A stretch of 64,000 nucleotides of DNA from Aliiroseovarius sp. Z3 (GTDB lineage: Bacteria; Pseudomonadota; Alphaproteobacteria; Rhodobacterales; Rhodobacteraceae): NCBI RefSeq assembly GCF_029105185.1, contig NZ_JAFMZK010000003.1:248001-312000 (forward strand). Reading direction: 5' to 3'. How positions within the stretch are numbered: the first letter of the stretch is position 1; each line of letters starts with the position of its first letter. The position numbers and the translations under genes were made by a program. The notes beneath the pieces are model-generated. The model had not been told where the DNA came from and made no database searches. It saw only the letters and a program-made list of their open reading frames with translations. Below are positions 37,824-54,003 of this stretch, in pieces.

Positions 37824-40322
37824 TCAGCGATGCAGGAGCCTTTCCAATTCGGCCAGCCGATTGTGAATTTCGTCGGAACTCATGTCTGAAGACCGTTCCT
37901 CCAGCGCTTTGAGTTGCTCCCAAATCGGCTGCTCTCCGAACATTGCGACCGACCCGGCGAGCTTGTGCGCGAGCGCGCCAAGTTCCGTCCGACGGCTTTC
38001 GTCTCCGGCCATGGCAGTCAGATCGACAATCCCGACTTTGACCTCAGTCACGACGCGTTGGCGCAGGGCTTCTGCCTTCTCGGCACCGAGAGTCTCGATC
38101 AAGTCGGCCATGGGGGTGCCATCCTGCCTTCTCTCTTCCCGAACGTCCGGTGCGGAGAATTCGGTCAGTACCGCTTTCAGCCGGTCGAAGGACAGGGGTT
38201 TCGTTATGACGTCCTCCATCCCGGCGTCGCGGAAGCGTGCCACGTCGGCGGGCAGCGCATGGGCCGTCAGCGCGATGATAGGGGTTTCGACATTCGGCCC
38301 ATTGCTGTTTTTGACCATCTTCGCTGCCGTCGTCCCGTCGAGTTTCGGCATGCTTATGTCCATCAGGATCAGATCGAATGCCTCCGCCTCGGCGGCGCGA
38401 ACGCCGTCCTGACCGTCGATGGCCTCTGTCACCTCACAGCCGTTCTTTTCGAGCATCTCGCGCGCAACCATCCGGTTAACCTCGTTATCCTCGACGAGAA
38501 GAACGCGGAGAGCGTCACCGGACACCTCATGCGGTGTCATCGAGACGGGCCGAGTGACGGGGCGGTCGGCGACGTGCGGAAGAGGAAGGCGGACCCAGAA
38601 GACCGACCCGTCGCCTTCTTCACTTTCGACTCCGATTTCACCCTCGAGCAGTTCAGCAAGCCTTCTCACAATGCCGAGGCCGAGGCCCGTTCCCTCGACT
38701 TCGCGCTGATAAGAGGCATCAAGCGTCACGAAGTCCTCGAAGATCCGCGCAAGATCGGCTTCGGAAATACCAATGCCCGTGTCGATCACGCGGAACTCCA
38801 TGGTCTCTCCTCCGTTCTGACAATCGATCTCCAGCGTGATGGTGCCGTTCTCGGTAAACTTGATTGCGTTGCCGAGGAGGTTGAAGAGGATCTGCTGTAT
38901 GCGCTTGCGGTCCCCAACCCGCATCGCCGCGCGCGGCCCGAGCTGCGCGATTTTCAACGTGTTGCCGCGCAGCGCCGCCGTGGTCTGAAGGCCCTCGACC
39001 GTGCTTTGCGCCAGCTCACAGACGTTGAACGGTTCTTCGACCCTTACCGCCTTCCCAGCATCGACGCGCGAGATGTCGAGTACGTTGTTGACGTGTTCGA
39101 GCAGCATCTTTCCAGAGGCATCCATGACGCCGACGTACTTTTGCTGGCGCTCGTCCAAAACTGTGTCGGATAAAAGATCAAGTGTGCCAAGAACGCCGTT
39201 GAGCGGCGTACGCATCTCGTGGCTCATCACCGCCAGAAGGTCGGCCTTGGCCTTTTCTCCGGCCAGCGCCTTGTCGCGGGCCTCGACCAGTTCGTTCTCG
39301 CTTTCAACGCGCTTCGAGATATCCCGGATGTAAGAGACGAAAATCTCCCCTTCCTCGCTTTCGGCAGAGTTGATCGAAAGTTCGACTGGGAAAACGCTGC
39401 CGTCCTTGCGCTTGGCCTCGAGTTTCAGAAGACCGCTACCGACGACGTGCTTGATCCCGGTCTGTCGGTACCGTGCCATCCCGTCATTGTGGGCGTCGAG
39501 CAGGTGATCGGGAATAATGAGGTCAGCCACGTCAGCGCCAATAGCTTCTTCCCGCGTATATCCAAATATGCCTTCCGCCGCGCCGTTGAAATCAAGGACG
39601 TGGCCGTCCTTGCCTGCCACAAGGATGGCGTCGAGCGAGGTCGAGATAATGGCTTGGAGACGGCCCTGGGTGAGCGCGATTTCGGAGGTCTGACGCTGCG
39701 ACGCGCGGTTGATCATAAAAAGGATGCCGACGAGAGCAAGAAGAAGCGCTAGCAGGCCAAAAGAGATAAAGCCGAGATCAGTCAAGGCGCCAGAAACAGC
39801 GGCACGCCGCGTTTCCGAACGGGCCGAGAGGACGGAGACCCCAGCGAGTGAGATGGTCCTGAGATCGGCCTGTAGCGACGGGAAACGGTCGACCAGACCG
39901 GGCAGCGCCGCGACGAAAGCTCCATCGTCCGCATCGACAAACGGTATCGCGTCAGCAAAGAAATCATCGATGTCGGCAAGCGAAATCTCAACCTCAGAAT
40001 GCGCGCGCACGTCAGCGAACGAGCGCGCGGATTTCAGCGTCTGCATGCGAGAGTAGAAGACGTCGAAGCGACGGCGCGCATCGGCCGGTTGAGCCTTTCC
40101 CGCGACAACCGCGCGGGCGGCAATCGTGAAGGCCAGGAATTCGACCTCGGACTGTGCCAGTGACCACTGCGTACTGTCGGCATTGGCAGTGGCAAGCGCG
40201 TCGACTTCGCGGCGCGCGTCCGCACTCAGCAGCCATATGGCCGCCGCACTGAACAGGACGACGGCCATATAGAGGAGCACGCGGCCAAGTACGCGCCGTT
40301 TTCGTGAAACCGGATTTACCAT
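37824..40322 (-). CDS. Hybrid sensor histidine kinase with receiver and Hpt domains
   Basis: 832-aa inner-membrane sensor. TM1 about 12-32; a periplasmic sensor of about 150 residues; TM2 about 184-205; PAS (about 220-335, FNGAAEGIFGYTREEAIGAD); HisKA with phospho-His 368 (VMSHEMRTPLNGVLG); HATPase (NLLGNAIKFT, DTGIGIS, GTGLGLGI); REC with Asp 655 (LILMDISMP); and an Hpt-like end with His 786 (LAHKLAGSVAMFG). This gives a complete His-Asp-His relay needing only a final response regulator, plausibly the LuxR-type gene at 41033. The SUOX-like periplasmic protein is encoded 13 bp upstream on the same strand and is probably its input. Confidence 0.92.
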   Translation of the reverse strand: MVNPVSRKRRVLGRVLLYMAVVLFSAAAIWLLSADARREVDALATANADSTQWSLAQSEVEFLAFTIAARAVVAGKAQPADARRRFDVFYSRMQTLKSARSFADVRAHSEVEISLADIDDFFADAIPFVDADDGAFVAALPGLVDRFPSLQADLRTISLAGVSVLSARSETRRAAVSGALTDLGFISFGLLALLLALVGILFMINRASQRQTSEIALTQGRLQAIISTSLDAILVAGKDGHVLDFNGAAEGIFGYTREEAIGADVADLIIPDHLLDAHNDGMARYRQTGIKHVVGSGLLKLEAKRKDGSVFPVELSINSAESEEGEIFVSYIRDISKRVESENELVEARDKALAGEKAKADLLAVMSHEMRTPLNGVLGTLDLLSDTVLDERQQKYVGVMDASGKMLLEHVNNVLDISRVDAGKAVRVEEPFNVCELAQSTVEGLQTTAALRGNTLKIAQLGPRAAMRVGDRKRIQQILFNLLGNAIKFTENGTITLEIDCQNGGETMEFRVIDTGIGISEADLARIFEDFVTLDASYQREVEGTGLGLGIVRRLAELLEGEIGVESEEGDGSVFWVRLPLPHVADRPVTRPVSMTPHEVSGDALRVLLVEDNEVNRMVAREMLEKNGCEVTEAIDGQDGVRAAEAEAFDLILMDISMPKLDGTTAAKMVKNSNGPNVETPIIALTAHALPADVARFRDAGMEDVITKPLSFDRLKAVLTEFSAPDVREERRQDGTPMADLIETLGAEKAEALRQRVVTEVKVGIVDLTAMAGDESRRTELGALAHKLAGSVAMFGEQPIWEQLKALEERSSDMSSDEIHNRLAELERLLHR

Positions 40323-40335
40323 CTATGTGCGAGGC

Positions 40336-40806
40336 TCATTCGATCACGTCGATCCGGTCAAGCTGCCAGATGCTGCGCGAATAGATGATTTCGGTCTGAT
40401 ACGCCTTGTCGGAGTCGTAGGGATAGACAACCCAGAGCGGACCCTTGTCACGCACTGACATCGGATCGCCGTTCAGCCGGTAAGCAATGATCGGTCCTCC
40501 CTCGATGGCGTCATCGACAGGGATTTCGACCGCATAATCGTTGATTGCCGTCGCCTTGATTGCGCCCTCGGTCACGCCGAAATCATCGAGAAGTGCGGCC
40601 AATGAAACACCCGTGAAAGTTTGCAGGCCTTCGGTCCAGATTGTCGTCGTTTCGAATTCTTGTGCTTCCATCGCCTCCAGTGCGGGCATGTCGAATTCGG
40701 TTACTTCACCGCCGTGCGTCACGGTCAGAACGACATCCTGAGCGAAAACACCAGAGGGAAGAGCGGCCAATGCAGAAACCGCGAAAACTCTCATAATAAA
40801 CGTCAT
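40336..40806 (-). CDS. Periplasmic SUOX-fold/PruR-like ligand-binding protein
   Basis: 156-aa exported protein (signal peptide about 1-22, ending SGVFAQ) with a domain resembling the molybdopterin-binding oxidoreductase (SUOX) fold: FTGVSLAALLDDFGV, AINDYAVEIP, GPIIAYRLNGDPMSVRDKGP, LWVVYPYD. It lacks the cysteine ligand of true molybdoenzymes; the mature part has no Cys. Known relatives such as Agrobacterium PruR bind pterins in the periplasm and control a membrane partner encoded next door, regulating polysaccharide and biofilm. Here the neighbour is a hybrid kinase. I chose ATG 40806; a GTG three codons earlier sits on the ribosome site. The PruR equivalence is inferred. Confidence 0.7.
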   Translation of the reverse strand: MTFIMRVFAVSALAALPSGVFAQDVVLTVTHGGEVTEFDMPALEAMEAQEFETTTIWTEGLQTFTGVSLAALLDDFGVTEGAIKATAINDYAVEIPVDDAIEGGPIIAYRLNGDPMSVRDKGPLWVVYPYDSDKAYQTEIIYSRSIWQLDRIDVIE

Positions 40807-40891
40807 AGCCGTCACCTTTTTGCTAAAACCGAGAATGCCCGGTTGTCCGTCGGGACGGTGACATACCTAGACTGGTAAGTCTGCATCACTG

Positions 40892-40920
40892 AAGGATAAT
40901 CCGACTATCCTTTCGTATAA
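40892..40920. promoter_or_regulatory. Inverted repeat and shared motif in the divergent regulatory gap
   Basis: AAGGATA (40892-40898) and TATCCTT (40906-40912) form a perfect 7-bp dyad with a 7-nt spacer. Its right arm extends into CTATCCTTTCGTAT (40905-40918), which recurs with one change upstream of the GT2 gene at about 48745. The gap lies between the divergent kinase operon and the LuxR-type regulator, so this is a good candidate operator for that regulator. Not experimentally known. Confidence 0.45.
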
Positions 40921-41032
40921 ATAACCTGACCGTTTGCGACGCCAGACATACCGAGTAACCGAGGACCGTTAGGTGAATTATGGAATATCTTCGGTCTCGA
41001 AAGTTAACAGTCAGAAAGTTTCGGAGTACAAG

Positions 41033-41704
41033 ATGCAAAACGTGCTATCCTTCAGGGCAAAAGACGACATCGACTATTCTACGGAGGCTCGGGCGGCTCC
41101 TATGCGTATATTGATCGCCGACGATCACGACCTTGTCCGCGACACGATCGCAATGTTCCTGGAAGCAGAGGGCATGGCCGAGATCGTGAGTGTGGAAAAC
41201 CTCGATGCCGCTGTTCAAGCCGCGGATGCCTCAGGCAGTTTCGATCTTGTACTTCTTGACTTCAACATGCCGGGCATGGACGGCCTTCAGGGACTGACTC
41301 GTATGAAGGAAGCCAATGACGGCTGTCCGGTTGCAATCCTCTCGGGCACGGCAACGCCGCGGATTGCCAAGGATGCCTTAGCGGCGGGCGCGGCCGGGTT
41401 CGTACCGAAGACGCTGGGGGCGAAATCCATGGTCTCGGCGATCCGCTTCATGGTGGCGGGGGAAACCTTCTTGCCTTACGATTTCATGCAGCAGGAAGAA
41501 GCGAAAACGGTCGCCAACCTGAGCGAGCGCGAGACCGAGGTGTTGCGCGGCTTGTGCGAAGGCAAGTCTAACAAGGAGATCGCCCGAGACCTCGACCTTC
41601 AGGAAGTGACGATCAAGCTTCACGTCAAGACGCTCTGCCGTAAGCTCGATGCCAAGAACCGTACACAAGCGGCCATGATCGCGCGCGACCACAAGCTGCT
41701 CTGA
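41033..41704 (+). CDS. LuxR/NarL-type response regulator
   Basis: 223-aa two-domain regulator. The receiver has the acidic pair DD (30-31, ILIADDHDLVRD) and phospho-acceptor Asp 76 (LVLLDFNMPGMDG). A C-terminal LuxR-type helix-turn-helix follows (LSERETEVLRGLCEGKSNKE, then VTIKLHVKTLCRKL). I chose ATG 41033 with GGAG six bases upstream; a GTG at 40973 would add 20 residues and ATG 41102 would begin at the receiver. It is divergent from the kinase and PruR-like genes and 15 bp before the glycan genes, so it likely reports the relay and controls them. Confidence 0.9.
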   Translation: MQNVLSFRAKDDIDYSTEARAAPMRILIADDHDLVRDTIAMFLEAEGMAEIVSVENLDAAVQAADASGSFDLVLLDFNMPGMDGLQGLTRMKEANDGCPVAILSGTATPRIAKDALAAGAAGFVPKTLGAKSMVSAIRFMVAGETFLPYDFMQQEEAKTVANLSERETEVLRGLCEGKSNKEIARDLDLQEVTIKLHVKTLCRKLDAKNRTQAAMIARDHKLL

Positions 41705-41719
41705 CTGGCACGCCTCACG

Positions 41720-44700
41720 ATGAGGACCGCAAGCGCATATTCCGGTGATGACCCCACATCGGACGAAAGCGACGGGCTCCGCCTGCTTCTCGTCGCGCTG
41801 GCGGCCTGCGTGCTGTTTCATGGCGGTCTTTTGCCGTTCACCCACGGTAACACCTACGACGCCTTCATCCACATGTTCTTTGCGGACAGTTATCACCGCA
41901 GTTGGTTCGACCCTTGGGAGCCGCGCTGGTACACTGGATTTGCGACCACCTCCTATCCGCCGGGCAGCCACATGGCGATTGCCACGCTTATGAAGGTGAT
42001 GCCGCTGCGGGCGGCCTTCGTCGTGGTCCAGACGGTAGCACTTGTCCTTCTGACCATCGGCACATACCGCTTCGCCCGTCTCTGCGTGACCGCGCGTCCT
42101 GCGGGATATGCCGCGATCTCGCTGGTGCTGGCTTCGTCGATTTCTGAAACGGTGCATCTTTTCGGGCAGTTGCCGACTACGCTGTCACTCGGGATATTTC
42201 TGAACGGCTTGCCTTTCGTATTTCGCTGGATCGTCGAAGGCCGCGTGTTCGACCTTCTTGCCGCTGTTGTTTTCGCAGCCGCCACCACTGCGGCACATCA
42301 CGTCACGACGATATTCGGAGGGGTGCTTTTCATCCTTCCGCTTGGCCTTCACGCGCTCAGCGCTGTCTCGGCAAGCGAAAGAAAAGGACATTTGAGATTG
42401 ATCAGGCGTCTCGGCTGGCCGGTGGGGCGCGGTCTGCTGCTTGCCGTCCTTATGCTCGCTGCCATCGTGATCACCGTCTTTCCATACTGGTCCTGGTCGA
42501 TCAACGATCCGATCACGCAGGTCCCCATTCCGCATGGCAGCCGGGAAAGCTTCATCGCGCGCCCCGATCTCGGCGTCGTGTTCTTCCTTCTGCCCTGGGG
42601 CACTGCGCTTCTGGTGCTGCCCTATCTCGTCTACAAGACCGTGACGACGCGGCATTGGCCGCTAGGGATTTCCGTGCTGCTTTGCTTCTTGCTCGGCACC
42701 GGCGGCACGACGCCCCTTCCGCGCGCCCTGTTGGGCGGCGCGTTTGACATCCTGACGCTCGACCGCTTCACCTTCTGGGCGACCATCCTGATCCTTCCCT
42801 TTACCGGTCTCCTCTTCGAAGGGCTTCTTCACGGACGTGCGGGTGAAACACTTCGTGGGCTGTTCGGGCGGCAGGCGCACCGGATCCTGATTGGCGGATA
42901 CTTCCTCGCCACAGTCGCCGTCGCGGTCTTCGCAGCGATCCTGCCGTCGATCCAGCCGACGCAGCCGCGCTTCATCGACCCTGCGCCGATCGTGCAGTTT
43001 CTGGAGGAGGATGAGCATGATCGCTGGCGCTATCTGACGCTGGGCTTCGGCGATCAGTTCGCCTATCTGTCGGCGCAGACCGAGGCGCTTTCAGTCGACG
43101 GCAACTACCACTCTGCGCGCCGCCTGCCGGACATGACGCGCTTTTCGGTCGAGCGCCTGGAGAACGCCAAGTACCTGGGCGTTCCGGGCCTCGGCTCACT
43201 CCAGCAGTTCTTGGTGAACGCGGACAGCTACAACCTGAAATACGTGTTCTCGAACGACGACTTCTATGATCCGCTTTTGCATTTCAGCGGTTGGACGCGA
43301 CTCAACCGGCTTTCGAACGGCGTGACAGTCTGGGAAAAGGCGGATGTGACGCCCTTGCGGTCAATCACGCCCCGGCGCGAAATACCGGCGGTGCACATGG
43401 CCATGTGGGCAGTTCTTCCGCCAGCGGCGCTGACCCTGGCCGCTTTGGTGTCGCTGCTGGGTCTCGGACGTCGGCCTACGGTCGATCATGCATTGGAAAG
43501 TGACAATGCGTCGCCCCGGTCGCCGCACGTGATTGGTTTGCTGGTGGCTGCGACCATCCTCTCGGTCGTAGGAGGGACCGCCGCCGCGGGCTGGTCGATA
43601 TACTCGGGGCAGGCCCAACCCGAAACCCCAGAAGAAGTGATCGAAGGCTATTTCGACGATCTCGATTTCCGGCGGTTCGAGGCGGCCTATGCCCGGCTTG
43701 ATCCGGAGACACGCCCGGATTTCGAGGTGGTAATGTTCAACTGGCGGTGGCGGGGAGGGCTTCTGGCTTCGTATGGCAAGCTCGCCTCAATATCGGTGTC
43801 GCCGCGCGATACCTCCGAAACCTTGGGAACATGGGAAGTCACCCTCGAATGGCTTACATCACTGGGCCTTAGAACCGAACGTGTCGAAGTGTCCACAGTC
43901 TTCAGGGGCGGCGCCTGGCGCATTGCACCGATGAGCCTTCGCCCGAACCAGACGCCGGCGCGGCTTCAGCGGGGCAATGAGGTGACTTGGAATGTCACGG
44001 GGCGGCGCCAGCCTCGGATCGAAACGGATTTGCATCGCGACCGGTTGGATCGCCCGCGTGTGGCCCTTCACGGAATGCGCTTGGTCGAACGCGGCGGGCG
44101 TTACAGCCTTGTCGGCGCAGTGACCAACGCGGATGCAGATCCCGCGATGACGAGCCTTTTCGGCGAGCTTTTCGCGGGCGAACTGCGCCAGGCGCGCACC
44201 GCCGCCGGTCAAGTGATCGAACAACGTCTATTGCCCGCTGAGACCGCCGGTTTCCGGGTCGATTTCGAAGGTGTCCTTTCGCTGGAGGACGCAGCCGACA
44301 GCTTCGATCCGACGCTATTCATCCCTCCCGAGTTCGATGCCCGCCCCGACAATGCACGCATCGAGGCGCGCGCGCTGGTCACTGGATCCGACCTCTACCG
44401 TGGCGTCGCCCTGAATGCGGTCCGGGTCACGCCAACCGATGACGGCTCGGTACTGAGCGGGCTGGCCGTAAACACCGGGACCGAGACCGCGACGATCATA
44501 AGGGTGATCGCACTTCTCTACGACAAGGGTGGCGCGCCAGTTTGGGCCGAAGCGGGTTATGCCGAAACGAACATCTATCCCGGACAGAGCGCCCCTTTCA
44601 CAATGAAACTCCCCGCACGGGAGGCCATCACCATCGTCTCCGACCTCGGACTGGCAGACACAGTGGTGAACGGCAGCACACAACAAGCAGACACGGACCT

Positions 44701-44797
44701 TCCCGAAGCCTCCATCGGGACCATCCCGCTTTCCATCGAAGGTTATTCTGCGCTTCGCCTTCAGGTATCCACCATGACTTTCGATCCCTTGTTTTGA
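41720..44797 (+). CDS. Large GT-C-like integral membrane protein (putative glycan polymerase or transferase)
   Basis: 1025 aa. Residues 1-640 hold about 12 hydrophobic segments. The first periplasmic loop after TM1 contains NTYDAFIHMFFADSY, an acidic loop position typical of GT-C enzymes, and then RWYTGFATTSYPPGSHMAIA. A roughly 390-residue non-membrane C-terminus follows the last helix (about 610-632); in it I see beta-rich, repeated-looking segments (LHGMRLVERGGRYSLVGAVT and a related LNAVRVTPTDDGSVLSGLAV). This resembles PTPS-related membrane glycosyltransferases. It could elongate or polymerise the product of this locus. No closer family is recognised. Confidence 0.55.
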   Translation: MRTASAYSGDDPTSDESDGLRLLLVALAACVLFHGGLLPFTHGNTYDAFIHMFFADSYHRSWFDPWEPRWYTGFATTSYPPGSHMAIATLMKVMPLRAAFVVVQTVALVLLTIGTYRFARLCVTARPAGYAAISLVLASSISETVHLFGQLPTTLSLGIFLNGLPFVFRWIVEGRVFDLLAAVVFAAATTAAHHVTTIFGGVLFILPLGLHALSAVSASERKGHLRLIRRLGWPVGRGLLLAVLMLAAIVITVFPYWSWSINDPITQVPIPHGSRESFIARPDLGVVFFLLPWGTALLVLPYLVYKTVTTRHWPLGISVLLCFLLGTGGTTPLPRALLGGAFDILTLDRFTFWATILILPFTGLLFEGLLHGRAGETLRGLFGRQAHRILIGGYFLATVAVAVFAAILPSIQPTQPRFIDPAPIVQFLEEDEHDRWRYLTLGFGDQFAYLSAQTEALSVDGNYHSARRLPDMTRFSVERLENAKYLGVPGLGSLQQFLVNADSYNLKYVFSNDDFYDPLLHFSGWTRLNRLSNGVTVWEKADVTPLRSITPRREIPAVHMAMWAVLPPAALTLAALVSLLGLGRRPTVDHALESDNASPRSPHVIGLLVAATILSVVGGTAAAGWSIYSGQAQPETPEEVIEGYFDDLDFRRFEAAYARLDPETRPDFEVVMFNWRWRGGLLASYGKLASISVSPRDTSETLGTWEVTLEWLTSLGLRTERVEVSTVFRGGAWRIAPMSLRPNQTPARLQRGNEVTWNVTGRRQPRIETDLHRDRLDRPRVALHGMRLVERGGRYSLVGAVTNADADPAMTSLFGELFAGELRQARTAAGQVIEQRLLPAETAGFRVDFEGVLSLEDAADSFDPTLFIPPEFDARPDNARIEARALVTGSDLYRGVALNAVRVTPTDDGSVLSGLAVNTGTETATIIRVIALLYDKGGAPVWAEAGYAETNIYPGQSAPFTMKLPAREAITIVSDLGLADTVVNGSTQQADTDLPEASIGTIPLSIEGYSALRLQVSTMTFDPLF

Positions 44798-45855: not shown

Positions 45856-47345
45856 TGCGGCTTCTCCTAATCATTGGCACTTTTATCGGTGTCACCGCGT
45901 TGGTTCTCTGGGGCGCGGCGCGCGCATTCGAGGCGGCAGAGGCGCAACGCGTGACCTATCGATACATCGCGGCCGCGCTGGCGCCAGTAGACGTAGGTGA
46001 ACTCTATGTGACCTGGAATGCACCGGACGTGCCTCTCGTCAGGCCATTCACTCAAGCAGACGCCACCGTTATCAGCCGCGCACTTGGCGAAGCGTGGCAA
46101 GTGTTAGCTGTCGCTCAGGAAAGCGGAAACCCCAATCTCCTTGCAGACCGTTTCACCGGGATCGCGGCGGAGCGGTCAACGCTTTCGGTCAGGGACGCGA
46201 CGGCTCACGGGGGGCGCATGATTGTGCTGTCGCAGCGGGCGACACCGATGTTCTACCACAAAGACGGTTCGCTTTTTCAGGCACGGATCGAGATGGTGGT
46301 GGCCCGGTATCTCTCGCACAATGGTGCGACGCTTGACGCGATGGAAGTGACGCGGGACACGGGCGTCGCTACCCTTTTGAATGACTCGAACGGCTGGCGC
46401 GTGATGTCCTGGGAACGGCGCACGTCGCAGACACTCGACGCGCCGCGCGTCACTTTTGAAGGGAGACTTGCAGGTGTCAATTACTATCCTGCCGAAACGC
46501 CGTGGCGCGATTTCTGGCTGGAATTCGATGCGACTGACGTGGCGCGCGATTTCGACCGGATTGCCGGGCTGAACGGCAACGCCGTCCGGATATTTCTCAC
46601 CCGCGACGCCTTCATCGGCGCGCGTGCTGACGCATCGCTCGACAGTCTGGCACGCCTGCTCGCAGTCGCAGAGGAGAAATCGCTTCGCGTGGTGCCGACC
46701 CTTTTTGATCTAAAGCAGGATTATTCCGTCGGGACCTGGGGAGGCGACGCACTTTATCTCTCCCGCGTGCTGCGGGTGCTCGACGCCTCGCCTGCCGTCG
46801 CTTTCATCGATCTGAAGAATGAGCCCGATCTGGACTTCGAAGCGCACGGCGAGGCGAAAGTCCTGGCTTGGCTTACGACCATGCTCGGGCTCTCAAGGAG
46901 CATTGATGCAAGGATTCCGCTGTCGATCGGCTGGTCCTCTGCCGAAGCCGCAAACGCTCTGATCGAAGATGTCGACGTCGTGACCTATCACGACTATGCG
47001 CCCCTCGAGGGCGCGGCGGAACGTCTGGACGCTCTCCGCGCCCTGGCGGACGGCAAGCCCATCTACGTCACCGAGATTGGGGAAAGCTCCTATTCGCTGG
47101 TCGCCGGTTTTCCGGGGACGGAGGCGAAACAGGCGAAGAGACTTTCCGAGCGGCTTGACGCGCTACGGGAAGCGGATGGCATCATGGTCTGGACGCTTTA
47201 CGACTTTCCCAACGTCGATCCCTCTGTAGTTGGCGCTTCACCCTGGGTCAGGCGGCTGCAATCCTCCTTCGGCATACTACGCGTCGATGGCACCGAAAAA
47301 CCGGGGGCCGCGTCACTCAGAGACGGTTTTGCAGGACGCGGCTGA
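45855..47345 (+). CDS. Membrane-anchored GH5-like (clan A) glycoside hydrolase domain protein
   Basis: 496 aa with one N-terminal transmembrane anchor (about 2-20), a non-catalytic region (30-200), then a TIM-barrel-like domain (about 205-490). The barrel shows LAGVNYYPAE, the acid/base motif LKNEPDLD (Glu 323), VVTYHDYAPL, and YVTEIGESSY with probable nucleophile Glu 407, all as in GH5/GH-A enzymes. It would face the periplasm and could trim, edit or transglycosylate the exported polymer. Exopolysaccharide clusters commonly carry such a hydrolase. Substrate unknown; beta-mannan is a guess from the neighbouring GDP-mannose genes. Confidence 0.7.
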   Translation: MRLLLIIGTFIGVTALVLWGAARAFEAAEAQRVTYRYIAAALAPVDVGELYVTWNAPDVPLVRPFTQADATVISRALGEAWQVLAVAQESGNPNLLADRFTGIAAERSTLSVRDATAHGGRMIVLSQRATPMFYHKDGSLFQARIEMVVARYLSHNGATLDAMEVTRDTGVATLLNDSNGWRVMSWERRTSQTLDAPRVTFEGRLAGVNYYPAETPWRDFWLEFDATDVARDFDRIAGLNGNAVRIFLTRDAFIGARADASLDSLARLLAVAEEKSLRVVPTLFDLKQDYSVGTWGGDALYLSRVLRVLDASPAVAFIDLKNEPDLDFEAHGEAKVLAWLTTMLGLSRSIDARIPLSIGWSSAEAANALIEDVDVVTYHDYAPLEGAAERLDALRALADGKPIYVTEIGESSYSLVAGFPGTEAKQAKRLSERLDALREADGIMVWTLYDFPNVDPSVVGASPWVRRLQSSFGILRVDGTEKPGAASLRDGFAGRG

Positions 47346-47462
47346 TTACCGGAAGTATAGTCGTGGCTGACCTTTTGCCCCGTGGGTCCTGCCTTTGCGC
47401 ATTCGCTTCCGGTGCCCGCCCTGGAGTAAGTTGCGGCAACTTTTCACGACCGGAGCTGTCTC

Positions 47463-48668
47463 ATGAAACTCAAACTCGCACTCGTTTCCGCCTTTCCGCC
47501 GGGACGGCACAGCCTGAACGAATACGGTCTGCACCTTGCCCGGGAGATGGCGGCGCGGACCGACGTTTCCGAGGTCGTCGTTCTGGCCGACCAACTTACC
47601 GAAGAAGCGCCCGAACTGGTGCTCGGCCCGAAAGTTCGGGTTGTGCGGTGCTGGTCGTTCAACAGCGTGACCGCGGGGGTCTCCATTTTGACCGCTCTGA
47701 AGCGCGAAGGCGTGGACGCCGCGATCTGGAACGTACAGACCGCGACTTTCGGCGACCGCGAAGCTCCCGCAGCTCTGGGTCTCATGGCCCCCGCCGTCGC
47801 CCGCCTACTGGGCACACCGGGCGGCGTGATCGCGCACAACATCCTCGCTGGCATCGACCTCGACAGCACGCAACTGAAAGGCCAGCGCATCCGACAGGCC
47901 GTGGTCCGTGCCGCCGGGCCCGTCGTGACGCGCGCGATGCTGGCCGCGACCTATACGACGGTCACGCTCAGAAGCTATGCAGATCACCTGGGCGCGGCCT
48001 TTCCAAAGGCGGAAGTGCACCTTGTCCCGCATGGCACCTTCGACACCGACAAACGCGACATGGCTCGGATCGAGAGCCGCGCCCGACGCATCGTGACGAT
48101 GGGCAAGTTCGGGACGTACAAGCGGCTGGAAACGCTGTTAGCCGCTTTCGACATGCTGCGCAAAGACCCCGCGTTCGCCAACTACGAACTTGTCATCGGC
48201 GGTAGCGATCATCCGAACGCAAAAGGCTACATGGCCTCAGTCGAGGCAGCCCGAGCCGACGATCCGGGCGTGAACTTCCACGGCTATGTGGCGGAAGACG
48301 ACGTGCCTGCATTCTTCGGCAACGCGCGGGTCAGCGTCTTCGACTATTCCGCGACGACAGGCAGCAGCGGCGTCCTTCACCAGACAGCATGCTACGGCGC
48401 GGTGCCCGTCTTCCCGGCGATCGGCGATTTTGTCGATGTCTGCCGGGACGAGGGACTGGCCGGGGCGAACTATGCACCCGAGAACGCCTCCGAAATGGCG
48501 GGCGCGATGCGCCGTATACTAGGAGACCCTACAGAAGCGAACCGGCTGGCAAAGGCGAACAAGGAAGCGTCGATGGAACTGCCCCTGTCGAAAGTCGTGG
48601 AGTTCCATGTCGATCGGCTCAGGCGGGCCATTCGGCCACGGGTCAGACAAGTTCCACAGACGGTATAA
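47463..48668 (+). CDS. Glycosyltransferase family 4 (GT-B)
   Basis: 401-aa retaining-type GT-B enzyme. The N-terminal acceptor domain begins LALVSAFPPGRHSLNEYG. The C-terminal donor domain has MGKFGTYKRLETLLAAF, the HGYVAEDDVPAFF segment and SGVLHQTACYGAVPVFPAIG, corresponding to the usual E-x7-E region with variation. It is likely a mannosyl- or hexosyltransferase. It follows the GH5-like gene by 117 bp and is followed by a strong terminator, so it ends the first transcription unit. Confidence 0.85.
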   Translation: MKLKLALVSAFPPGRHSLNEYGLHLAREMAARTDVSEVVVLADQLTEEAPELVLGPKVRVVRCWSFNSVTAGVSILTALKREGVDAAIWNVQTATFGDREAPAALGLMAPAVARLLGTPGGVIAHNILAGIDLDSTQLKGQRIRQAVVRAAGPVVTRAMLAATYTTVTLRSYADHLGAAFPKAEVHLVPHGTFDTDKRDMARIESRARRIVTMGKFGTYKRLETLLAAFDMLRKDPAFANYELVIGGSDHPNAKGYMASVEAARADDPGVNFHGYVAEDDVPAFFGNARVSVFDYSATTGSSGVLHQTACYGAVPVFPAIGDFVDVCRDEGLAGANYAPENASEMAGAMRRILGDPTEANRLAKANKEASMELPLSKVVEFHVDRLRRAIRPRVRQVPQTV

Positions 48669-48677
48669 GATCACTTC

Positions 48678-48705
48678 AAGCGGCTATCCTTCGGGATAGC
48701 CGCTT
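48678..48705 (+). terminator. Perfect 12-bp TTCG-loop terminator after the GT4 gene
   Basis: AAGCGGCTATCC (48678-48689) pairs perfectly with GGATAGCCGCTT (48694-48705) around a TTCG tetraloop. A short U-rich segment (CGCCTTTT) follows. It starts 9 bp after the GT4 stop and splits the glycan locus into two transcription units. Confidence 0.8.
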
Positions 48706-48742
48706 CGCCTTTTGGGGCGCGCCCTCCTCCCTTCGAGAACAG

Positions 48743-48760
48743 TCTATCCTTTTGTATTTC
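48743..48760 (+). promoter_or_regulatory. Second copy of the CTATCCTTTYGTAT motif
   Basis: CTATCCTTTTGTAT (within 48743-48760) matches 13 of 14 bases of the motif in the regulator/kinase gap. It lies about 80 bp before the GT2 start and directly after the terminator, where a promoter for the second unit is needed. It may be a shared operator or promoter element. Confidence 0.4.
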
Positions 48761-48836
48761 ATATCTATTCCTCCGTTGCAGCGACTTATTATCCGAGGTC
48801 TGGCAGAACGATTTCAACGAAATGAAAGGTTCTGAC

Positions 48837-49718
48837 ATGACCAGCCGCACCACGAACACCGCCACCGTCACAGCCTTCCCGGGCACCGCAGGCACCACAC
48901 AGCGCACCGCCATCGTTGTGCCTTGCTACAACGAGGCCGACCGCCTCGATCAGGGCGCATTTCTCGCCCATCTTGATGCCTCGCCCACGACAGATTTCAT
49001 CTTTGTGAATGACGGCAGCCGGGACACCACAGTCGACAGGCTCACAGCACTCCGTGATGCCGCTCCGACCCGTGTGACGGTCGTTGATCTGGCAAAGAAC
49101 TCGGGCAAGGCCGAGGCGGTTCGGCAGGGGCTGCTCACCGCCGCCGAGAAGGGCGCGGCACTCATCGGCTACTGGGACGCCGACCTGGCGACCCCGCTCG
49201 ACGCCATCGACGATTTCGCGCGCGTGCTGAACAAGTTCGCAGAGACCCAGGTCGTCTACGGCGCGCGCCGGATGATGCTCGGTCACCGTATCGAACGGAC
49301 GCTTGGCCGCCGGATCGTCTCGCGCATCTGCGCCACACTAGCGCGTCAGGCTGTCGGGCTTCCCATCGGTGATACGCAATGCGGCGCAAAGATGATGCGG
49401 AACACGCGGATCCTGCGCGCTGCCGTCGCTTCGCCTTTCACCGCCGGTTGGCTCTTCGACGTCGAATTCTTCGCCCGGCTTTCCGCCGGAATGACAGAGC
49501 GGCGTTTCGCGTTCTACGAGCAACCGCTTGCCGAATGGACCGAAGTGGCCGGGTCGAAGGTTTCAAGCACCGCAATTGTGAAAAGTGGCTTCCGGATGCT
49601 TCGCCTTATTGCCGAGCAACGTCTCGGTCTCTCCTTCGGGACCGAAGCGGGTGTCTCGGCGACCGCGACGATCCTCGCCGCGCCGTCCGCAGCAATCCTT
49701 CCGGCAAAGGCGGCCTGA
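48837..49718 (+). CDS. Family 2 glycosyltransferase, dolichol-phosphate-mannose-synthase-like
   Basis: 293-aa GT-A enzyme with VVPCYNEADRL, FVNDGSRDTT and the DxD-type WDADLATPLD, the set typical of polyprenyl-phosphate hexose synthases. The C-terminus has no clear membrane pair. It may load mannose or another sugar onto a lipid carrier, supplying the GT-C-like protein, which in other systems uses polyprenyl-phosphate sugars. I chose ATG 48837 with AAAGG seven bases upstream; ATG 48822 overlaps that site. The flippase follows 4 bp later. Confidence 0.85.
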   Translation: MTSRTTNTATVTAFPGTAGTTQRTAIVVPCYNEADRLDQGAFLAHLDASPTTDFIFVNDGSRDTTVDRLTALRDAAPTRVTVVDLAKNSGKAEAVRQGLLTAAEKGAALIGYWDADLATPLDAIDDFARVLNKFAETQVVYGARRMMLGHRIERTLGRRIVSRICATLARQAVGLPIGDTQCGAKMMRNTRILRAAVASPFTAGWLFDVEFFARLSAGMTERRFAFYEQPLAEWTEVAGSKVSSTAIVKSGFRMLRLIAEQRLGLSFGTEAGVSATATILAAPSAAILPAKAA

Positions 49719-49722
49719 TCCG

Positions 49723-51015
49723 ATGACTTATCTCTCCGTTCCCCCGGCACCAGGCTTTCGGGCCGTTGCGGCAATCGTAGCGACGCCCGCCGTCCTTGTG
49801 TTCCTCTCGTCGAATTTCGTCAATGTCGGCAACCTTGCCTTCAACATGATTTTCAGCCGCCTGATGGGACCGGAGATGTTCGGAGTGCTTGCGTTTTTGC
49901 TGACGATCACGCTCGCACTCTTCGGTGTCCTCGGCACCGTTCAGATGTCGGTCAGTCAACTGGTTGCCTCGTCCTCAGAAGATGAGCGTCCGTTTGTCAG
50001 GCTGGCGTTGTCGCGCATCAACCGCATCCTGGTTATGGGGGCGCTGGTCATTGGAGCCATACTCACGGGATGCTTTCTTGCCGGTGAGGCGGTTGATGCG
50101 CGGCTTCTTTCGGTCGAGCCGCATCTCCTCGTTCTATTGCTGGCGGCAGTACCGTTCGGCGCGTCGATGAGCGTCCTGCGCGGCATCGCATTCGGCGACA
50201 TGGACACAGGTCGGATCGTCCTTTCTGCGAATGTCGAGATGGGCGTCCGTCTGGCTGGCGCACTTCTTGCTTGGAGCCTCGGGTTCGGACTGGAGGGAGT
50301 TGTCGTTGCGATCAGCCTGTCGATCGTTGCGGGCTGGGCCGTGCTGACAGGCCTTATGCAGCCGAAGGTGGGCGGGATCGATGTTTCCCCAGTGGCAATG
50401 ACGGTCGCCGTCACCGCGATTCCGTTCGCCATCCTGCAGGTCACGCAAGTCGCGGCGCTGGATGGTGACATCTTCCTTGCCAAAGCGCTTCTTTCTGACG
50501 TCGAAGCCGGGTACGTCGCTGCACTGTCACTCTTTCAGCGCATCCAGTTTTTCGCCTGCTTCGCATTGGCAAGTGTGCTTGTGCCGCAGGTCGTGCGCGT
50601 AGCAAAGGAAGACGGCAGGGTGGTTCGCTGTGCCCTGCCTGTCTATGCGCTCTTCGGTGCCGTGAGCGTGATCGTCATTTGTGCGGCACTGGTCGCGCCT
50701 GGCACGCTTGTCACTCTTCTGGCCGGTGGGGCCTATGGTCCTGCGGCCAGTTCACTGCTTCTCGCGGTACTCGCTGCGGCGCTTTTCACCTTCAACTACT
50801 TGACGGCCACACTTCTCATCGCGGTCGGCGACCGGAGCGGCCTATACCTGATCGCCGGCGGCGCGCTTCTTCAAGTCGCTGTCATGTTCTGGGCGGACCC
50901 AACCAGCTTCGGTGCTCTTTTGGCGATCAAGGCAGCTGTGCAGGCCGTCACCGCAACACTTATCCTCCTTCGCGCGTTGTTCCTGCTCCGCACCTCCACT
51001 CAACATGTAAATTAA
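49723..51015 (+). CDS. Polysaccharide flippase (Wzx/MATE-like)
   Basis: 430-aa integral membrane protein with about 12 segments, beginning AVLVFLSSNFVNVGNLAFNM and followed by FSRLMGPEMFGVLAFLLTI, a layout typical of oligosaccharide flippases. It would move lipid-linked glycan units to the periplasmic face. I chose ATG 49723; the longer frame begins inside the GT2 gene. It lies between the GT2 gene and manC on one strand. Confidence 0.82.
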   Translation: MTYLSVPPAPGFRAVAAIVATPAVLVFLSSNFVNVGNLAFNMIFSRLMGPEMFGVLAFLLTITLALFGVLGTVQMSVSQLVASSSEDERPFVRLALSRINRILVMGALVIGAILTGCFLAGEAVDARLLSVEPHLLVLLLAAVPFGASMSVLRGIAFGDMDTGRIVLSANVEMGVRLAGALLAWSLGFGLEGVVVAISLSIVAGWAVLTGLMQPKVGGIDVSPVAMTVAVTAIPFAILQVTQVAALDGDIFLAKALLSDVEAGYVAALSLFQRIQFFACFALASVLVPQVVRVAKEDGRVVRCALPVYALFGAVSVIVICAALVAPGTLVTLLAGGAYGPAASSLLLAVLAAALFTFNYLTATLLIAVGDRSGLYLIAGGALLQVAVMFWADPTSFGALLAIKAAVQAVTATLILLRALFLLRTSTQHVN

Positions 51016-51039
51016 CCCGTATCCCGAAAGGACTTTACC

Positions 51040-52464
51040 ATGTCGACCTCCCCGATCCATCCTGTCATCCTCTGTGGTGGCAACGGCACCCGCCTCTGGC
51101 CAGTCAGCCGCAAATCCATGCCCAAGCAGTTCGCGCGGCTCAACGGTGAACACAGCCTGCTTCAGCAGACGCTCCTCCGTCTCGAAGACGCGGGCTGCGG
51201 AGCGCCTGTTCTGGTGTCCAACGAAGAGCACCGCTTCACTGTTGGCGCACAGGCTGAAGAGATCGGTATCACCGAACGCAACGTCGTCATCGAGCCGGAG
51301 GCGCGGAACACCGCCGCCGCTATCTGTGCTGCCGCCGAAGTGATCGCACGCACTGATACACAGGCGCTGATGCTGGTGGCTCCTTCAGATCACGCCATCG
51401 GCGATGTGCTGAAATTCTCTGCTGCTATCGCCCAAGGCGCCGAAGCGGCGCGCGAAGGGCACATCGTGACTTTCGGCATCGTTCCCGATCGCGCCGCTAC
51501 GGGCTACGGATACATCGAACTCGACGGACGAAAGGGTATCTCGGACAGCGCTCAGGACTATCTCCGCTTTGTCGAAAAGCCGGATGCAGCAACTGCCCAA
51601 ACGATGGTCAAAGAAGGCAATTTTCTGTGGAATGCGGGCATCTTTCTGGCCACGGTCGAGACCTTTCGCGCCGCTTTTGGCAAGCATGCTCCCGATTTGC
51701 GCGCTGCCGTGCGCGCCTCGGTCAGGGGCGCGCGGACCGACCTCGACTTTCTCCGGCTCGGCGCGGACTTCGCCAAGGCGCCGTCCATCTCTTTCGATGT
51801 CGCCGTGATGGAGAAAGAGGCTGGCAAGGTCGTGCCGATGCAGGCGAACTGGTCCGACCTCGGGTCGTGGAAAAGCCTCTGGTTGCAGGCGCCGCATGAC
51901 GAGGACGGCGTCGCGACGCGCGGTGCGTGCCATGCGCTCGACTGCAGCGATACCCTTCTCTTCTCGCAGGACAACGGCATCGAACTCGTTGGCATCGGCC
52001 TGAAGAACATCGCCGCCGTTGCAACGCGGGACGCGGTTATCGTCACCGACTTGGACGCCAGCCAGTCGGTCTCAAAGATCGTTCCGATGCTACGCGCCGA
52101 AGGGTGTCGCCAGGCCGAAACCTTCGCGCGCTGCGAACGCCCGTGGGGCCATTACGAGGCGCTGTCGCTGGGACACCGGTTCCAGGTGAAATCCATCGTC
52201 GTGAAACCCGGCGGACAGCTGTCGCTGCAAAGCCACGTCCACCGCTCGGAGCACTGGGTCGTCGTCGAGGGCACCGCTACGGTCACTGTCGGGCGGAAAG
52301 AGCAGATCTTGTCGGAGAACGAGTCTGTCTACATCCCGCTCGGCGAGATCCACAGGCTTGCGAACCACGGAAAGGTGCCCTTGCAACTGATCGAGGTTCA
52401 AACCGGCGCGTATCTGGGAGAGGATGACATCGTGCGCTACGAAGACATCTACGAGCGTGCCTAA
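51040..52464 (+). CDS. manC: Mannose-1-phosphate guanylyltransferase / mannose-6-phosphate isomerase
   Basis: 474-aa bifunctional enzyme that makes GDP-mannose. The N-terminal nucleotidyltransferase has the motif LCGGNGTRLWPVSRKSMPKQ and FVEKPD. The C-terminal cupin has GGQLSLQSHVHRSEHWVVVE, the type II isomerase site. The length is typical of ManC/AlgA. It follows the flippase by 24 bp. With manB it supplies GDP-mannose and thus points to a mannose-containing product. Confidence 0.95.
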   Translation: MSTSPIHPVILCGGNGTRLWPVSRKSMPKQFARLNGEHSLLQQTLLRLEDAGCGAPVLVSNEEHRFTVGAQAEEIGITERNVVIEPEARNTAAAICAAAEVIARTDTQALMLVAPSDHAIGDVLKFSAAIAQGAEAAREGHIVTFGIVPDRAATGYGYIELDGRKGISDSAQDYLRFVEKPDAATAQTMVKEGNFLWNAGIFLATVETFRAAFGKHAPDLRAAVRASVRGARTDLDFLRLGADFAKAPSISFDVAVMEKEAGKVVPMQANWSDLGSWKSLWLQAPHDEDGVATRGACHALDCSDTLLFSQDNGIELVGIGLKNIAAVATRDAVIVTDLDASQSVSKIVPMLRAEGCRQAETFARCERPWGHYEALSLGHRFQVKSIVVKPGGQLSLQSHVHRSEHWVVVEGTATVTVGRKEQILSENESVYIPLGEIHRLANHGKVPLQLIEVQTGAYLGEDDIVRYEDIYERA

Positions 52465-52473
52465 GGTGACGCC

Positions 52474-52500
52474 TGCTGCGGTCCCTTCTGGGCCGCAGCA
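52474..52500 (+). terminator. Hairpin after manC
   Basis: TGCTGCGG-T-CCC (52474-52485) pairs with GGGCCGCAGCA (52490-52500) around a TTCT loop, with a single bulged T. It starts 9 bp after the manC stop. No U-tract follows, so it is a weak terminator or processing hairpin. manB begins 103 bp later and may be reached by read-through. Confidence 0.5.
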
Positions 52501-52602
52501 AGCCGAAGGTCTGCGAACGCTGGATGGCCGACAATCATGCCAAACCCAGTGCACTGCGCGAGAAATCCAAGACCTTTCGATAGTTAAACGAGGTGTAAGA
52601 AG

Positions 52603-54003
52603 ATGGTGAAATTCGGGACAAGTGGGGTTCGGGGGCTTGTCACGGAGCTGACACCCGAGGTGGTTCAGTGCTATGTCAGAGCCTTCCTCGGCGTTGTTCC
52701 CCACTCTGGCGTGCTACTCATCGGGCAGGATTTACGGCCCTCGTCTTCAGATATTGCACGTTCGGTCAGCAACGCGGCGAACGCTCTCGGGCTGAAGGTC
52801 CACGATTGCGGGCAAGTCCCGACACCCGCTCTCGCTTTGGCGGCCGAAACTTTGGGCGCTCCGGCCGTCATGGTGACGGGAAGCCATATTCCTGCCGACC
52901 GCAACGGTTTGAAATTTTATCGCGCCGACGGAGAAATAACCAAAGACGATGAAGCATTGATCCAGACTGCCTTCGAACAGGACCAGACGCGGGATGTCTC
53001 GCCCAAGTATCTCGATGTGTTGCCGCACGACGCGACAGCACCATTTCTGGCGCGCTATGCAGATTTCTTCGGCCCGGAAGCATTGAGAGGTTTGCGGATC
53101 GGCGTCTACCAGCACAGTTCTGTTGCCCGCGACCTGCTGATCGACCTCATTCGCGCGCTTGGCGGTAAGGCCGTTCCCCTTGGGTGGTGCGGCACGTTCG
53201 TGCCGATCGATACCGAAGCCGTCGATACAGAGACGCGCATGCTTCTGCAGGATTGGGTGCGCGACAACGCCCTCGACGCTCTGGTCTCGACGGATGGCGA
53301 TGCGGATCGGCCAATGCTCATCAATTCAACCGGCAAGCTCGTTCCCGGTGACATCCTGTCGGTTCTGGCTGCACGGTACATCGGCGCCGAAACGATCGTG
53401 ACTCCGGTTTCGTCAAATACTGTCGTCGAGGCGACCGGGGCGTTTAGGTCCGTCCGTCGCACCCGGATCGGGTCGCCGTACGTGATCGCGGGCATGTCCG
53501 AGGCAGCATCGAACGGCGACAGCCAAATCGCCGGATACGAGGCGAATGGCGGCTTTCTGCTGGGTTTCGAAGCGAATCGGAACGGTCGCACGATCGCGCC
53601 GCTGATGACCCGCGACTTCGCGTTGCCGATCCTGGCGGCGCTTGCCGCCGCGAAAGAGGCGAACATGTCGCTCAGCGCGTTCGTCGCTGATCTGCCCGCC
53701 CGTTTCGTTGCATCGAACCGCCTTCAGGACGTGCCGAAGAATATCTCGGATAAGCTGGTTGCCGGCCTGCAAGACGGGGCCGACGTTCTGCCCCTCCTCT
53801 CGTCCAGAACGATCACAAAGACTGACCCGACCGACGGGATTCGCTTGTATTTCGCAGACGAAAGCATCGTGCACGTCAGACCTTCGGGCAACGCCCCCGA
53901 ACTGAGATGCTACGTCGAAGCCGGGACAGAAGGCGCCGCGGCTGAACTGCTCAATGACATGCTTCGGCACATGGAGACGTATGTTTCTGGGAAACGAGAA
54001 TAG
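52603..54003 (+). CDS. manB: Phosphomannomutase/phosphoglucomutase
   Basis: 466-aa alpha-D-phosphohexomutase converting mannose-6-phosphate to mannose-1-phosphate, the substrate of ManC. Visible sites are FGTSGVRGLVTELTPEVV, the catalytic serine loop VTGSHIPADRNGLK, metal loop DGDADRP, and phosphate site RPSGNAPELRCYVEA. It is the last intact gene of the island; the right-edge debris begins directly after. Glucose-1-phosphate activity is also possible in this family. Confidence 0.92.
   Translation: MVKFGTSGVRGLVTELTPEVVQCYVRAFLGVVPHSGVLLIGQDLRPSSSDIARSVSNAANALGLKVHDCGQVPTPALALAAETLGAPAVMVTGSHIPADRNGLKFYRADGEITKDDEALIQTAFEQDQTRDVSPKYLDVLPHDATAPFLARYADFFGPEALRGLRIGVYQHSSVARDLLIDLIRALGGKAVPLGWCGTFVPIDTEAVDTETRMLLQDWVRDNALDALVSTDGDADRPMLINSTGKLVPGDILSVLAARYIGAETIVTPVSSNTVVEATGAFRSVRRTRIGSPYVIAGMSEAASNGDSQIAGYEANGGFLLGFEANRNGRTIAPLMTRDFALPILAALAAAKEANMSLSAFVADLPARFVASNRLQDVPKNISDKLVAGLQDGADVLPLLSSRTITKTDPTDGIRLYFADESIVHVRPSGNAPELRCYVEAGTEGAAAELLNDMLRHMETYVSGKRE

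Follow-up and report, generated by a model that had tools for sequence, protein, structure and literature searches.

Organization of the locus

The window, that is, the whole stretch of 64,000 nucleotides of Aliiroseovarius sp. Z3 DNA that was analyzed, contains two adjoining genes on the minus strand. These code for a PruR-family, probably periplasmic, protein of 159 residues (40336-40815; Oxidored_molyb, SUOX-type, and phmmer), with a possible alternative ATG start at 40806, and, 13 bases downstream, for a DTB-type hybrid kinase of 832 residues (37824-40322; Pfam PAS, HisKA, HATPase, REC, and Hpt). Divergent from them, a NarL/LuxR-type response regulator (41033-41704, plus strand; Pfam REC and GerE) heads a series of glycan genes; its start is probably at 41033 and not at 40973, given that an ATG-QN start is common to related loci. 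The gene positions proposed in an earlier sequence-only reading were mostly borne out by the open reading frames and the Pfam and NCBIfam matches, as was the divergent layout itself. This gene order is kept in several other genomes, which indicates that the arrangement is not due to chance.

The genes that follow the regulator, all on the plus strand, code for a multi-membrane protein of 1025 residues with no assigned family, possibly GT-C-like (41720-44797), a small protein without a known domain and with an N-terminus that by eye resembles a signal peptide (44806-45855), a GH5-like glycoside hydrolase (45855-47345), a GT4 glycosyltransferase (47463-48668; Pfam), a GT2 glycosyltransferase (48822-49718; Pfam), a protein without a Pfam match that appears flippase-like from its appearance and position (about 49717-51015), the mannose-1-P guanylyltransferase/mannose-6-P isomerase ManC (51040-52464), and a ManB-like phosphohexomutase (52603-54003). 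ManC scores 565.8 bits with TIGR01479, above the cut-off of 372.95, while the ManB-like protein carries the PGM_PMM I-IV domains and its role in mannose metabolism is putative.

The claim that the locus is island-borne holds. A tRNA-Arg(CCT) gene (55831-55907, minus strand; ARAGORN) is the integration target of a hot spot with varied cargo, and an imperfect 15-bp copy of its 3' end marks the left island junction (36798-36812), where TGGCGACCCCGACAG is compared with TGGTGACCCCGGCAG at 55831-55845. Of 20 same-genus relatives, three have nothing inserted at the hot spot and show the flanking genes about 133-139 bases apart, and the BLAST pieces of the empty site overlap by 15 bases. Judged from these comparisons, the module is a tRNA-gene genomic island, with insertion at the 3' end of tRNA-Arg, a duplicated target, and an empty site. 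Between the cluster and the tRNA gene lie decayed mobile-element genes (54054-55814, minus strand), made up of an IS1182 transposase fragment (NF033551, E 3.5e-32, 112 bits versus a cut-off of 270) and unassigned frames, of which those at 54982-55814 gave no Pfam or NCBIfam match. No integrase was found among the island proteins scanned, which comprise some of the island's frames.

Product of the glycan cluster

The 1025-residue membrane protein has orthologues in five other loci (63-77% identical). It gave no match to Pfam or to PDB profiles, and its predicted model, for which two orthologues were admissible, is unusable (pLDDT 35), so that the GT-C-like label given to it earlier was not confirmed. 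The small, putatively exported protein gave only chance-level matches in the PDB profile search. For the GH5-like protein, the profile matches include the GH5 mannanase 7bob (4.6e-8) and ScGH5_18 (5.9e-7), with only a weak match to PslG (0.5); the NEP and TEIG motifs are conserved, and E323 and E407 are invariant in six sequences.

Among the Pfam matches of the cluster there is neither an outer-membrane exporter (Poly_export) nor a priming transferase, nor the Wza/Wzc export or polymerase of a Wzx/Wzy pathway, keeping in mind that Pfam can miss Wzc- and Wzy-like proteins, as it does at the Rhodobacteraceae locus L054. The term exopolysaccharide was, for this reason, an overstatement. The product could instead be a surface glycan attached to lipid or protein, in which case the 1025-residue membrane protein may serve as the ligase or transferase; to this reading we give a substantial, though less than even, chance. 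It is in line with the lack of Poly_export and priming transferase matches, which sets the cluster apart from the L054-type locus; nonetheless, export and priming functions could be encoded elsewhere, and a GH5 mannanase-like enzyme suits a polymer, as is the case of PslG in the Psl system.

The PruR-family sensor protein

The closest solved structures found by phmmer for the SUOX-like protein are 7kos (4.4e-30) and 7kp2 (5.3e-28), which are the PruR proteins of A. tumefaciens and V. cholerae, respectively, according to the available text of PMC13259868. The protein contains no cysteine, and therefore activity as a Moco enzyme was ruled out. Its W60, present in 76 of 79 aligned sequences, would be the residue that replaces the molybdenum-ligating cysteine. 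N92, Y94, and W150, each found in all 79 sequences, correspond to Asn102, Tyr104, and Trp160 in A. tumefaciens numbering, as given by a constant offset of 10 and the phmmer alignment. By eye, the N-terminus is hydrophobic and ends in AQD, which makes it a candidate secretion signal. Taken at the level of the sequence, the SUOX-like protein belongs to the PruR family and has the published pocket residues, in agreement with the homology to PruR that had been proposed. As a separate observation, a small SDR at 59313-60074 may, by eye, be a PruA candidate.

It is unlikely, in our view, that the relay is driven by a non-pterin ligand, be it another small heterocycle, a redox state, or envelope stress. 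This would fit with the available text of PMC13259868, according to which the key pterin has yet to be identified and PruA is missing from some PruR hosts. In favor of a pterin, however, the window protein has the reported pocket features, and of four solved relatives found, three were deposited as pterin-binding proteins.

The hybrid kinase

All relay domains (HisKA, REC, and Hpt) and an output regulator are present at the locus, with the Hpt domain at 22.1 bits, just below the Pfam cut-off of 24.6, and with a histidine in the sequence AHKLAGS. No GGDEF or EAL domain was found in the kinase with Pfam. The best NCBIfam match is TorS, at 368.2 bits and thus below the cut-off of 676.5. The periplasmic sensor domain is predicted to be helical (about residues 45-180; monomer model of residues 1-215, pLDDT 91), and a Foldseek search with it gave no match at E <= 0.001, the first rows being helical-bundle sensors such as NarQ.

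This domain contains a WX7E motif (WSLAQSEVE, residues 53-61). Of the 73 kinases extracted, 55 have such a motif within their first 200 residues, and W53 and E61 are near-invariant in an alignment of 41 kinases, namely that of the window and 40 chosen from the 55 located. The proposed pairing of the PruR-like protein with the kinase is upheld by the adjoining gene and by this DcpA-type motif. That a kinase stands in place of a c-di-GMP enzyme is likewise supported by WX7E together with HisKA/HATPase and the absence of GGDEF/EAL matches, but this is already known, since the WX7E motif of the partner kinase is that of the published PruR-DTB class. In the text available of PMC13259868, this class pairs PruR with a TorS/BaeS-like kinase, as in Ruegeria pomeroyi (WP_011045932.1), and is recorded as widespread.

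The regulator and its gene neighborhood

A kinase and a NarL/LuxR-type response regulator are both present in 45 of 60 Rhodobacteraceae PruR loci, referred to here as complete loci. The regulator is divergent and adjacent in 22 of them, divergent with intervening genes in 19, and downstream in four. Given that gene neighborhood is its basis, the kinase-regulator pairing is a putative one. At least three polysaccharide genes are found in 22 of the 45 complete loci, versus none of the 15 incomplete loci and none of 20 control stretches drawn from six genomes; at 20 of the complete loci, no polysaccharide seeds lie within reach.

The same glycan operon has a regulator of this type at its head in six of seven clusters (the window, L021, L022, L148, L149, and L151), while the cluster of L150 has no regulator nearby. 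The regulator of L149 is distant from the others (47% identity), and it stands with the glycan genes without PruR or kinase beside them, which makes the description of the module as self-contained too strong. L054 and its relatives link a second, unrelated polysaccharide locus, with a Bac_transf-WecG fusion, an NTP transferase, Poly_export, Polysacc_synt, and glycosyltransferases, to the same set of PruR, kinase, regulator, and operator-like palindrome.

A palindrome as putative operator

The palindrome CTATCC-N4-GGATAG was derived from the regions upstream of the regulators. Around the PruR loci (63 loci, 1.19 Mb) it occurs as 47 exact and 33 one-mismatch sites, versus no exact and 0-2 one-mismatch sites in eight draws (seven different) with shuffled half-sites; the two-mismatch sites (50, versus 2-28 in the shuffles) are not far above the control. 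It precedes pruR, regulator, and polysaccharide genes, and a site with at most one mismatch is present in 34 of 45 complete loci, one of 15 incomplete loci, and none of the 20 control stretches. Across 295 genomes of the family, 100 exact sites fall in 71 genomes, of which 57 are also PruR-positive and 14 lack PruR, while the reversed control is found in seven genomes; conversely, an exact site is lacking in 114 of the 171 genomes with PruR. Presence of the operator is patchy on the regulator tree (8 changes). The best site in the regulator promoter of L149 has at least four mismatches, and no site with at most one mismatch was found in the stretches examined of L151 and L152, which are close kin of the window regulator.

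Several sites are out of sample, given that the motif came from regions upstream of regulators. In 12 loci such sites precede Wzc-like genes by 97-102 bases, and in L188 and L193, two genomes that have no PruR, they stand ahead of ManC homologues. Also out of sample are the sites with one or two mismatches that four orthologous clusters have between their GH and GT4 genes, and a one-mismatch site ahead of the L150 glycan operon.

In the window itself, a putative operator with two overlapping motifs lies in the divergent pruR/regulator promoter (40893-40920). The first, AGGATA-N7-TATCCT (40893-40911), occurs exactly nowhere else in the genome; it was tried first as the operator form and set aside because it is not the form of the wider family. 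The second, CTATCC-N4-GTATAA (40905-40920), has two mismatches, and an operator-like but degenerate site between the GH and GT4 genes (ATTACC-GGAA-GTATAG, 47345-47360) has four, so that, by the letters, these two sites at 40905 and 47345 are weak. Sites with at most two mismatches are at background in the window genome (74 versus 109 in the control), which makes the relaxed scan uninformative. The sole exact palindrome of the 3.5 Mb genome, CTATCC-TTCG-GGATAG at 48684-48699, lies inside the glycan cluster and is ambiguous, given that it sits within an RNA-like hairpin.

The palindromes in or beside the glycan cluster could thus be RNA hairpins, acting as attenuators or terminators, which we consider rather doubtful as an explanation. 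The site at 48684, 16 bases past the GT4 stop, has 12-bp arms and a UUCG loop, with -30 kcal/mol and a z of -3.3 for a 72-nt stretch, and by eye L022 preserves the stem through two G-U pairs. Nonetheless, the site was not called by a terminator scan, the core letters recur beyond what mere pairing asks for, the reversed pattern, likewise palindromic, is rare (seven genomes versus 71), and among the sites listed, 30-180 bases from a start, most flanks do not by eye lengthen the stem.

In another reading, the signaling and glycan genes would be mere neighbors on mobile islands, with the regulator acting on its own promoter and on distant genes. The varied cargo of the tRNA-Arg hot spot, the complete loci without nearby polysaccharide seeds, the glycan operon of L149, and the weak sites of the window are in line with this reading, which is nonetheless improbable given that the regulator heads the same operon in nearly all clusters (with that of L149 as the distant case), that orthologous clusters contain operator-like sites, which in other genomes also precede Wzc-like and ManC genes, and that a second, unrelated polysaccharide locus is tied to the same set.

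Proposed mechanism and relation to known systems

The reading that we favor, and hold to be somewhat better than an even bet, is that of a PruR-DTB phosphorelay on a tRNA-Arg island that would set the transcription of surface-glycan genes directly. PruR would bind a small periplasmic ligand, which its homology suggests to be a reduced pterin. In one of its ligand states it would dock on the helical domain that the kinase has in the periplasm, as suggested by PruR-DcpA and the WX7E motif. Docking would alter autophosphorylation of the kinase, and the phosphate may then pass, as judged from the domains and the gene pairing, from HisKA to REC to Hpt and to the divergent NarL-type regulator. This would bind CTATCC-N4-GGATAG-type sites, a step supported by comparative genomics, in the pruR/regulator promoter and in the promoters of surface-glycan genes. 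Transcription of the mannose-type glycan cluster would be set directly, by either activation or repression, with c-di-GMP having no part in the relay. Elsewhere in the Rhodobacteraceae, this sensor-kinase-regulator set and its operator lie in a different polysaccharide locus, one that has Wza- and Wzx-type genes, which suggests that one signaling cassette serves different surface outputs. From the earlier interpretation, the homology to PruR, the pairing with the kinase, and the glycan link (through the family-wide gene neighborhood and the common operator-like palindrome) stand, while a kinase in this place is not new and the terms self-contained and exopolysaccharide are too strong.

The locus shares with PruR-DTB systems the PruR, putatively periplasmic here, with an intact pocket, the two-gene layout, the WX7E periplasmic domain, and PAS, HisKA, HATPase, and REC, and differs by the Hpt domain of its kinase and by the NarL-type regulator, operator, and glycan output proposed here. 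The available text of PMC13259868 names no regulator, DNA site, or target genes for these systems, the term 'response regulator' is absent from this review by word count, and a step from regulator and operator to glycan targets was not found for them in the literature. PruR-DcpA of Agrobacterium tumefaciens is alike in the PruR partner and in the biofilm-polysaccharide output, which is proposed here for the window, whereas DcpA is a c-di-GMP cyclase/phosphodiesterase and the output here would be a phosphorelay to a DNA-binding regulator. TorS-type hybrid kinases, whose partner is TorT, have the same domain order and include the best match of the window kinase, which differs by falling below the TorS cut-off and by having PruR and not TorT as its partner. 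The L054-type locus shares PruR, kinase, regulator, and operator but has other glycan genes. In the Psl locus of Pseudomonas, a ManC-type enzyme, glycosyltransferases, and a glycoside hydrolase are found together, as in the window, which differs in that no export genes were seen and PslG is a weak profile match only. Two further candidates, EmbRS and VarR, look different from the system described here: 'molybdopterin' is absent from the available text on the former (PMC3684757), and VarR has an autoinducer-binding domain, according to that of PMC4602140.

For the family as a whole, the chances appear evenly balanced that Rhodobacteraceae have a pterin-responsive regulon, in which PruR receptors would control surface-matrix genes through a dedicated regulator and CTATCC-N4-GGATAG, bypassing c-di-GMP, with the cassette coupled to differing glycan loci or, depending on the species, to large DUF11-type surface proteins. 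If the operator is right, its targets would be readable from Rhodobacteraceae genomes and, if the proposal is true, these marine bacteria would gain a route for the control of their matrix that is independent of c-di-GMP.

PruR-type sensor and kinase

The 159-residue SUOX-like protein (40336-40815, minus strand) matches solved PruR structures in phmmer at 4.4e-30 and 5.3e-28. It contains no cysteine, and its N92, Y94 and W150 have the same spacing as the published Asn102, Tyr104 and Trp160. When the window's protein was aligned with those of 78 loci, two loci being left out, each of these three residues was kept in 79/79 PruR-type sequences, and W60 in 76/79; the ligand is probably a pterin. 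The kinase gene (37824-40322, minus strand) begins 13 bases after the pruR-type gene, and its product bears WSLAQSEVE, which is a WX7E motif. This motif is found within the first 200 residues in 55 of the 73 kinases extracted; some of the rest have D in place of E, or a start that is uncertain. When the window's kinase was aligned with 40 chosen from 55, the W and the E proved near-invariant. Residues 1-215 are predicted (pLDDT 91) to form a bundle of helices flanked by two long ones, which are taken as the membrane segments; in a Foldseek search with the periplasmic model, the resemblance to helical sensor domains, NarQ among them, was weak and below significance.

Given the PruR homology, the pocket residues and the adjoining WX7E kinase, the window's pair belongs by these tests to PruR-DTB, the class of PruR with a two-component kinase that is already described in the review PMC13259868. 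For this reason, the kinase in place of a c-di-GMP enzyme, which the sequence-only reading had put forward, is real but already published there. PruR would dock on the kinase, and phosphate would be transferred through the relay.

Gene content and island

The gene list proposed earlier for the window agrees with ORFs, Pfam and NCBIfam, apart from two corrections. For the regulator, the most likely start is 41033, where an ATG is common to related loci, and the name GT-C-like for the 1025-residue protein finds no support from Pfam, a PDB profile search or the predicted model.

That the module is island-borne is confirmed by relatives with nearly joined flanking genes and by a tRNA end at the far junction. 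The flanking genes (36053-36790 and 55953-56993) are separated by about 133-139 bases, with tRNA-Arg between them, in three same-genus relatives (G009, G017 and G020); in nine others they share a contig at a distance of 8-51 kb. Of the other eight among the 20, six have them on different contigs, one has them about 145 kb apart, and in one they have no close match. The tRNA end at the far junction is imperfect and 15 bp long. Decayed transposase remains are present in the island, and no integrase was found among the island proteins scanned. PruR, which occurs in five of the 20 relatives, is accessory in this genus. The tRNA-Arg hot spot (36813-55830 in the window) may be a site where surface glycans are swapped; seven of the nine occupied relatives contain none of the polysaccharide-synthesis query proteins (seeds) used.

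In two same-genus relatives the hot spot carries other glycan genes: those for ManC, a phosphohexomutase, a UDP-glucose dehydrogenase, YjbH and a glycosyltransferase (GT) at L141, and those for WecG and other GTs at L143. At the island's left end, a short frame (37042-37224) resembles by eye the start of a RepC plasmid replication protein, with no Pfam or NCBIfam match.

Regulators and proposed outputs beside PruR loci

Sixty PruR loci were taken from a scan of genome contigs. By our own gene calls, a kinase match lies in the stretch at 55 of them, adjacent in some and not in all, and 45 are complete, with both kinase and REC-GerE regulator. The regulator is divergent and adjacent in 22 of these, divergent with intervening genes in 19 and downstream in four. 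The L148 glycan cluster has a second regulator of this type at its distal end (L148:2173-2778). Downstream of the regulator at L029 and L037 come a REC protein of roughly 400 residues and a small STAS-like protein, an arrangement that has the appearance of a partner-switch module.

At least three seeds occur in 22/45 complete loci (including L054 itself, because the seeds were drawn from L054 and the window), versus 0/15 PruR loci that lack a kinase or a regulator and 0/20 control stretches of 20 kb drawn from six genomes of the family. Ruegeria or its close kin account for seven of the 22. Among the other complete loci, one or two seeds occur at three and no seed at 20.

Two of the 22 (L021 and L022) carry the window-type cluster and the rest L054-type genes, to which the window's cluster is unrelated. 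By Pfam, L054 encodes a Bac_transf-WecG fusion, an NTP transferase, Poly_export, Polysacc_synt, GT2 and GT4; two further genes, without Pfam match, were named Wzc- and Wzy-like by the analyst. The window-type gene order is kept in L021 (to the contig end), L022/L147 and L148, and in L149 as far as the flippase and a ManC fragment; L150 has the first three genes, and the L151 cluster is cut at the contig end. The large membrane protein occurs in 6/295 family genomes, this one included.

The window's ManC exceeds its curated cut-off, and the top matches in a profile search with the hydrolase were GH5 mannanases (4.6e-8) and GH5_18 enzymes (5.9e-7), with PslG only at 0.5; mannose is therefore likely in the product. 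The term exopolysaccharide is unproved, because no export gene was recognised in the window's cluster. Next to the regulator at L023, L043 and L050 comes a small gene, and after it genes for proteins of 871-1724 residues. Those of L023 and L050, the two scanned, have DUF11 or GEVED/SdrD-B domains, which suggests that the relay has a protein-matrix output as well.

An operator-like palindrome

Motif discovery on 50 regulator upstream regions against 837 control upstream regions gave TATCC-N4-GGATA, one of eight palindromes among the matches listed, in 12 regulator regions versus 1.8 expected. Across 63 loci (1,192,507 bases), CTATCC-N4-GGATAG matches 47 sites exactly, 33 with one mismatch and 50 with two, a count that is partly circular for regulator promoters, the source of the motif; with shuffled half-sites, drawn eight times (seven of the draws different), the corresponding counts were 0, 0-2 and 2-28. 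Not circular are the sites 97-102 bases before Wzc-like genes in 12 loci, the exact palindromes about 110 bases before ManC homologues at L188 and L193 (genomes G079 and G224, in neither of which PruR was found), the sites in the GH-GT4 spacers of window-type clusters, with two mismatches in L021 and L148 and one in L022 and L149, and a one-mismatch site upstream of the L150 glycan operon. At L183 and L196 an epimerase-like gene, similar in appearance to SqdB, has an exact palindrome about 93-127 bases upstream.

Among 295 Rhodobacteraceae genomes, 71 contain an exact site (100 sites), versus seven for the reversed pattern, and 171 contain PruR. PruR is present in 57 of the 71, and an exact site is absent from 114 of the genomes with PruR (odds ratio 3.9, p 8.6e-6, relatedness being ignored). 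Of the 75 sites listed, the window's included, 32 are at most 12 kb from a listed PruR, where about 0.45 would be expected. In a tree of 51 regulators (37 with the operator, 14 without), the label is clustered but patchy, with eight changes versus 12.4 when shuffled.

Other results count against an operator. The window's promoter site has two mismatches and its GH-GT4 site four, and the only exact site in the 3.52 Mb genome, at 48684, forms the centre of a stable hairpin whose stem is kept in L022, by eye, through two G-U pairs; 48684 may be either an operator or an RNA element. The L149 regulator is distant from the window's (47% identity), has no good site before it and, like its operon, has neither PruR nor kinase beside it, PruR being elsewhere in the genome. 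No regulator was found near the L150 glycan operon, PruR lying about 15 kb away on that contig, and at L151 and L152, whose regulators are close kin of the window's, the stretches examined contain no site of at most one mismatch.

Among the matches listed in the open-licence literature, as far as these texts were available, no regulator or operator is named for a PruR-kinase pair. The regulator would control the glycan genes directly, the product probably being a mannose-containing glycan, and a regulator, a DNA site and a glycan output can be proposed together for PruR-DTB signalling.
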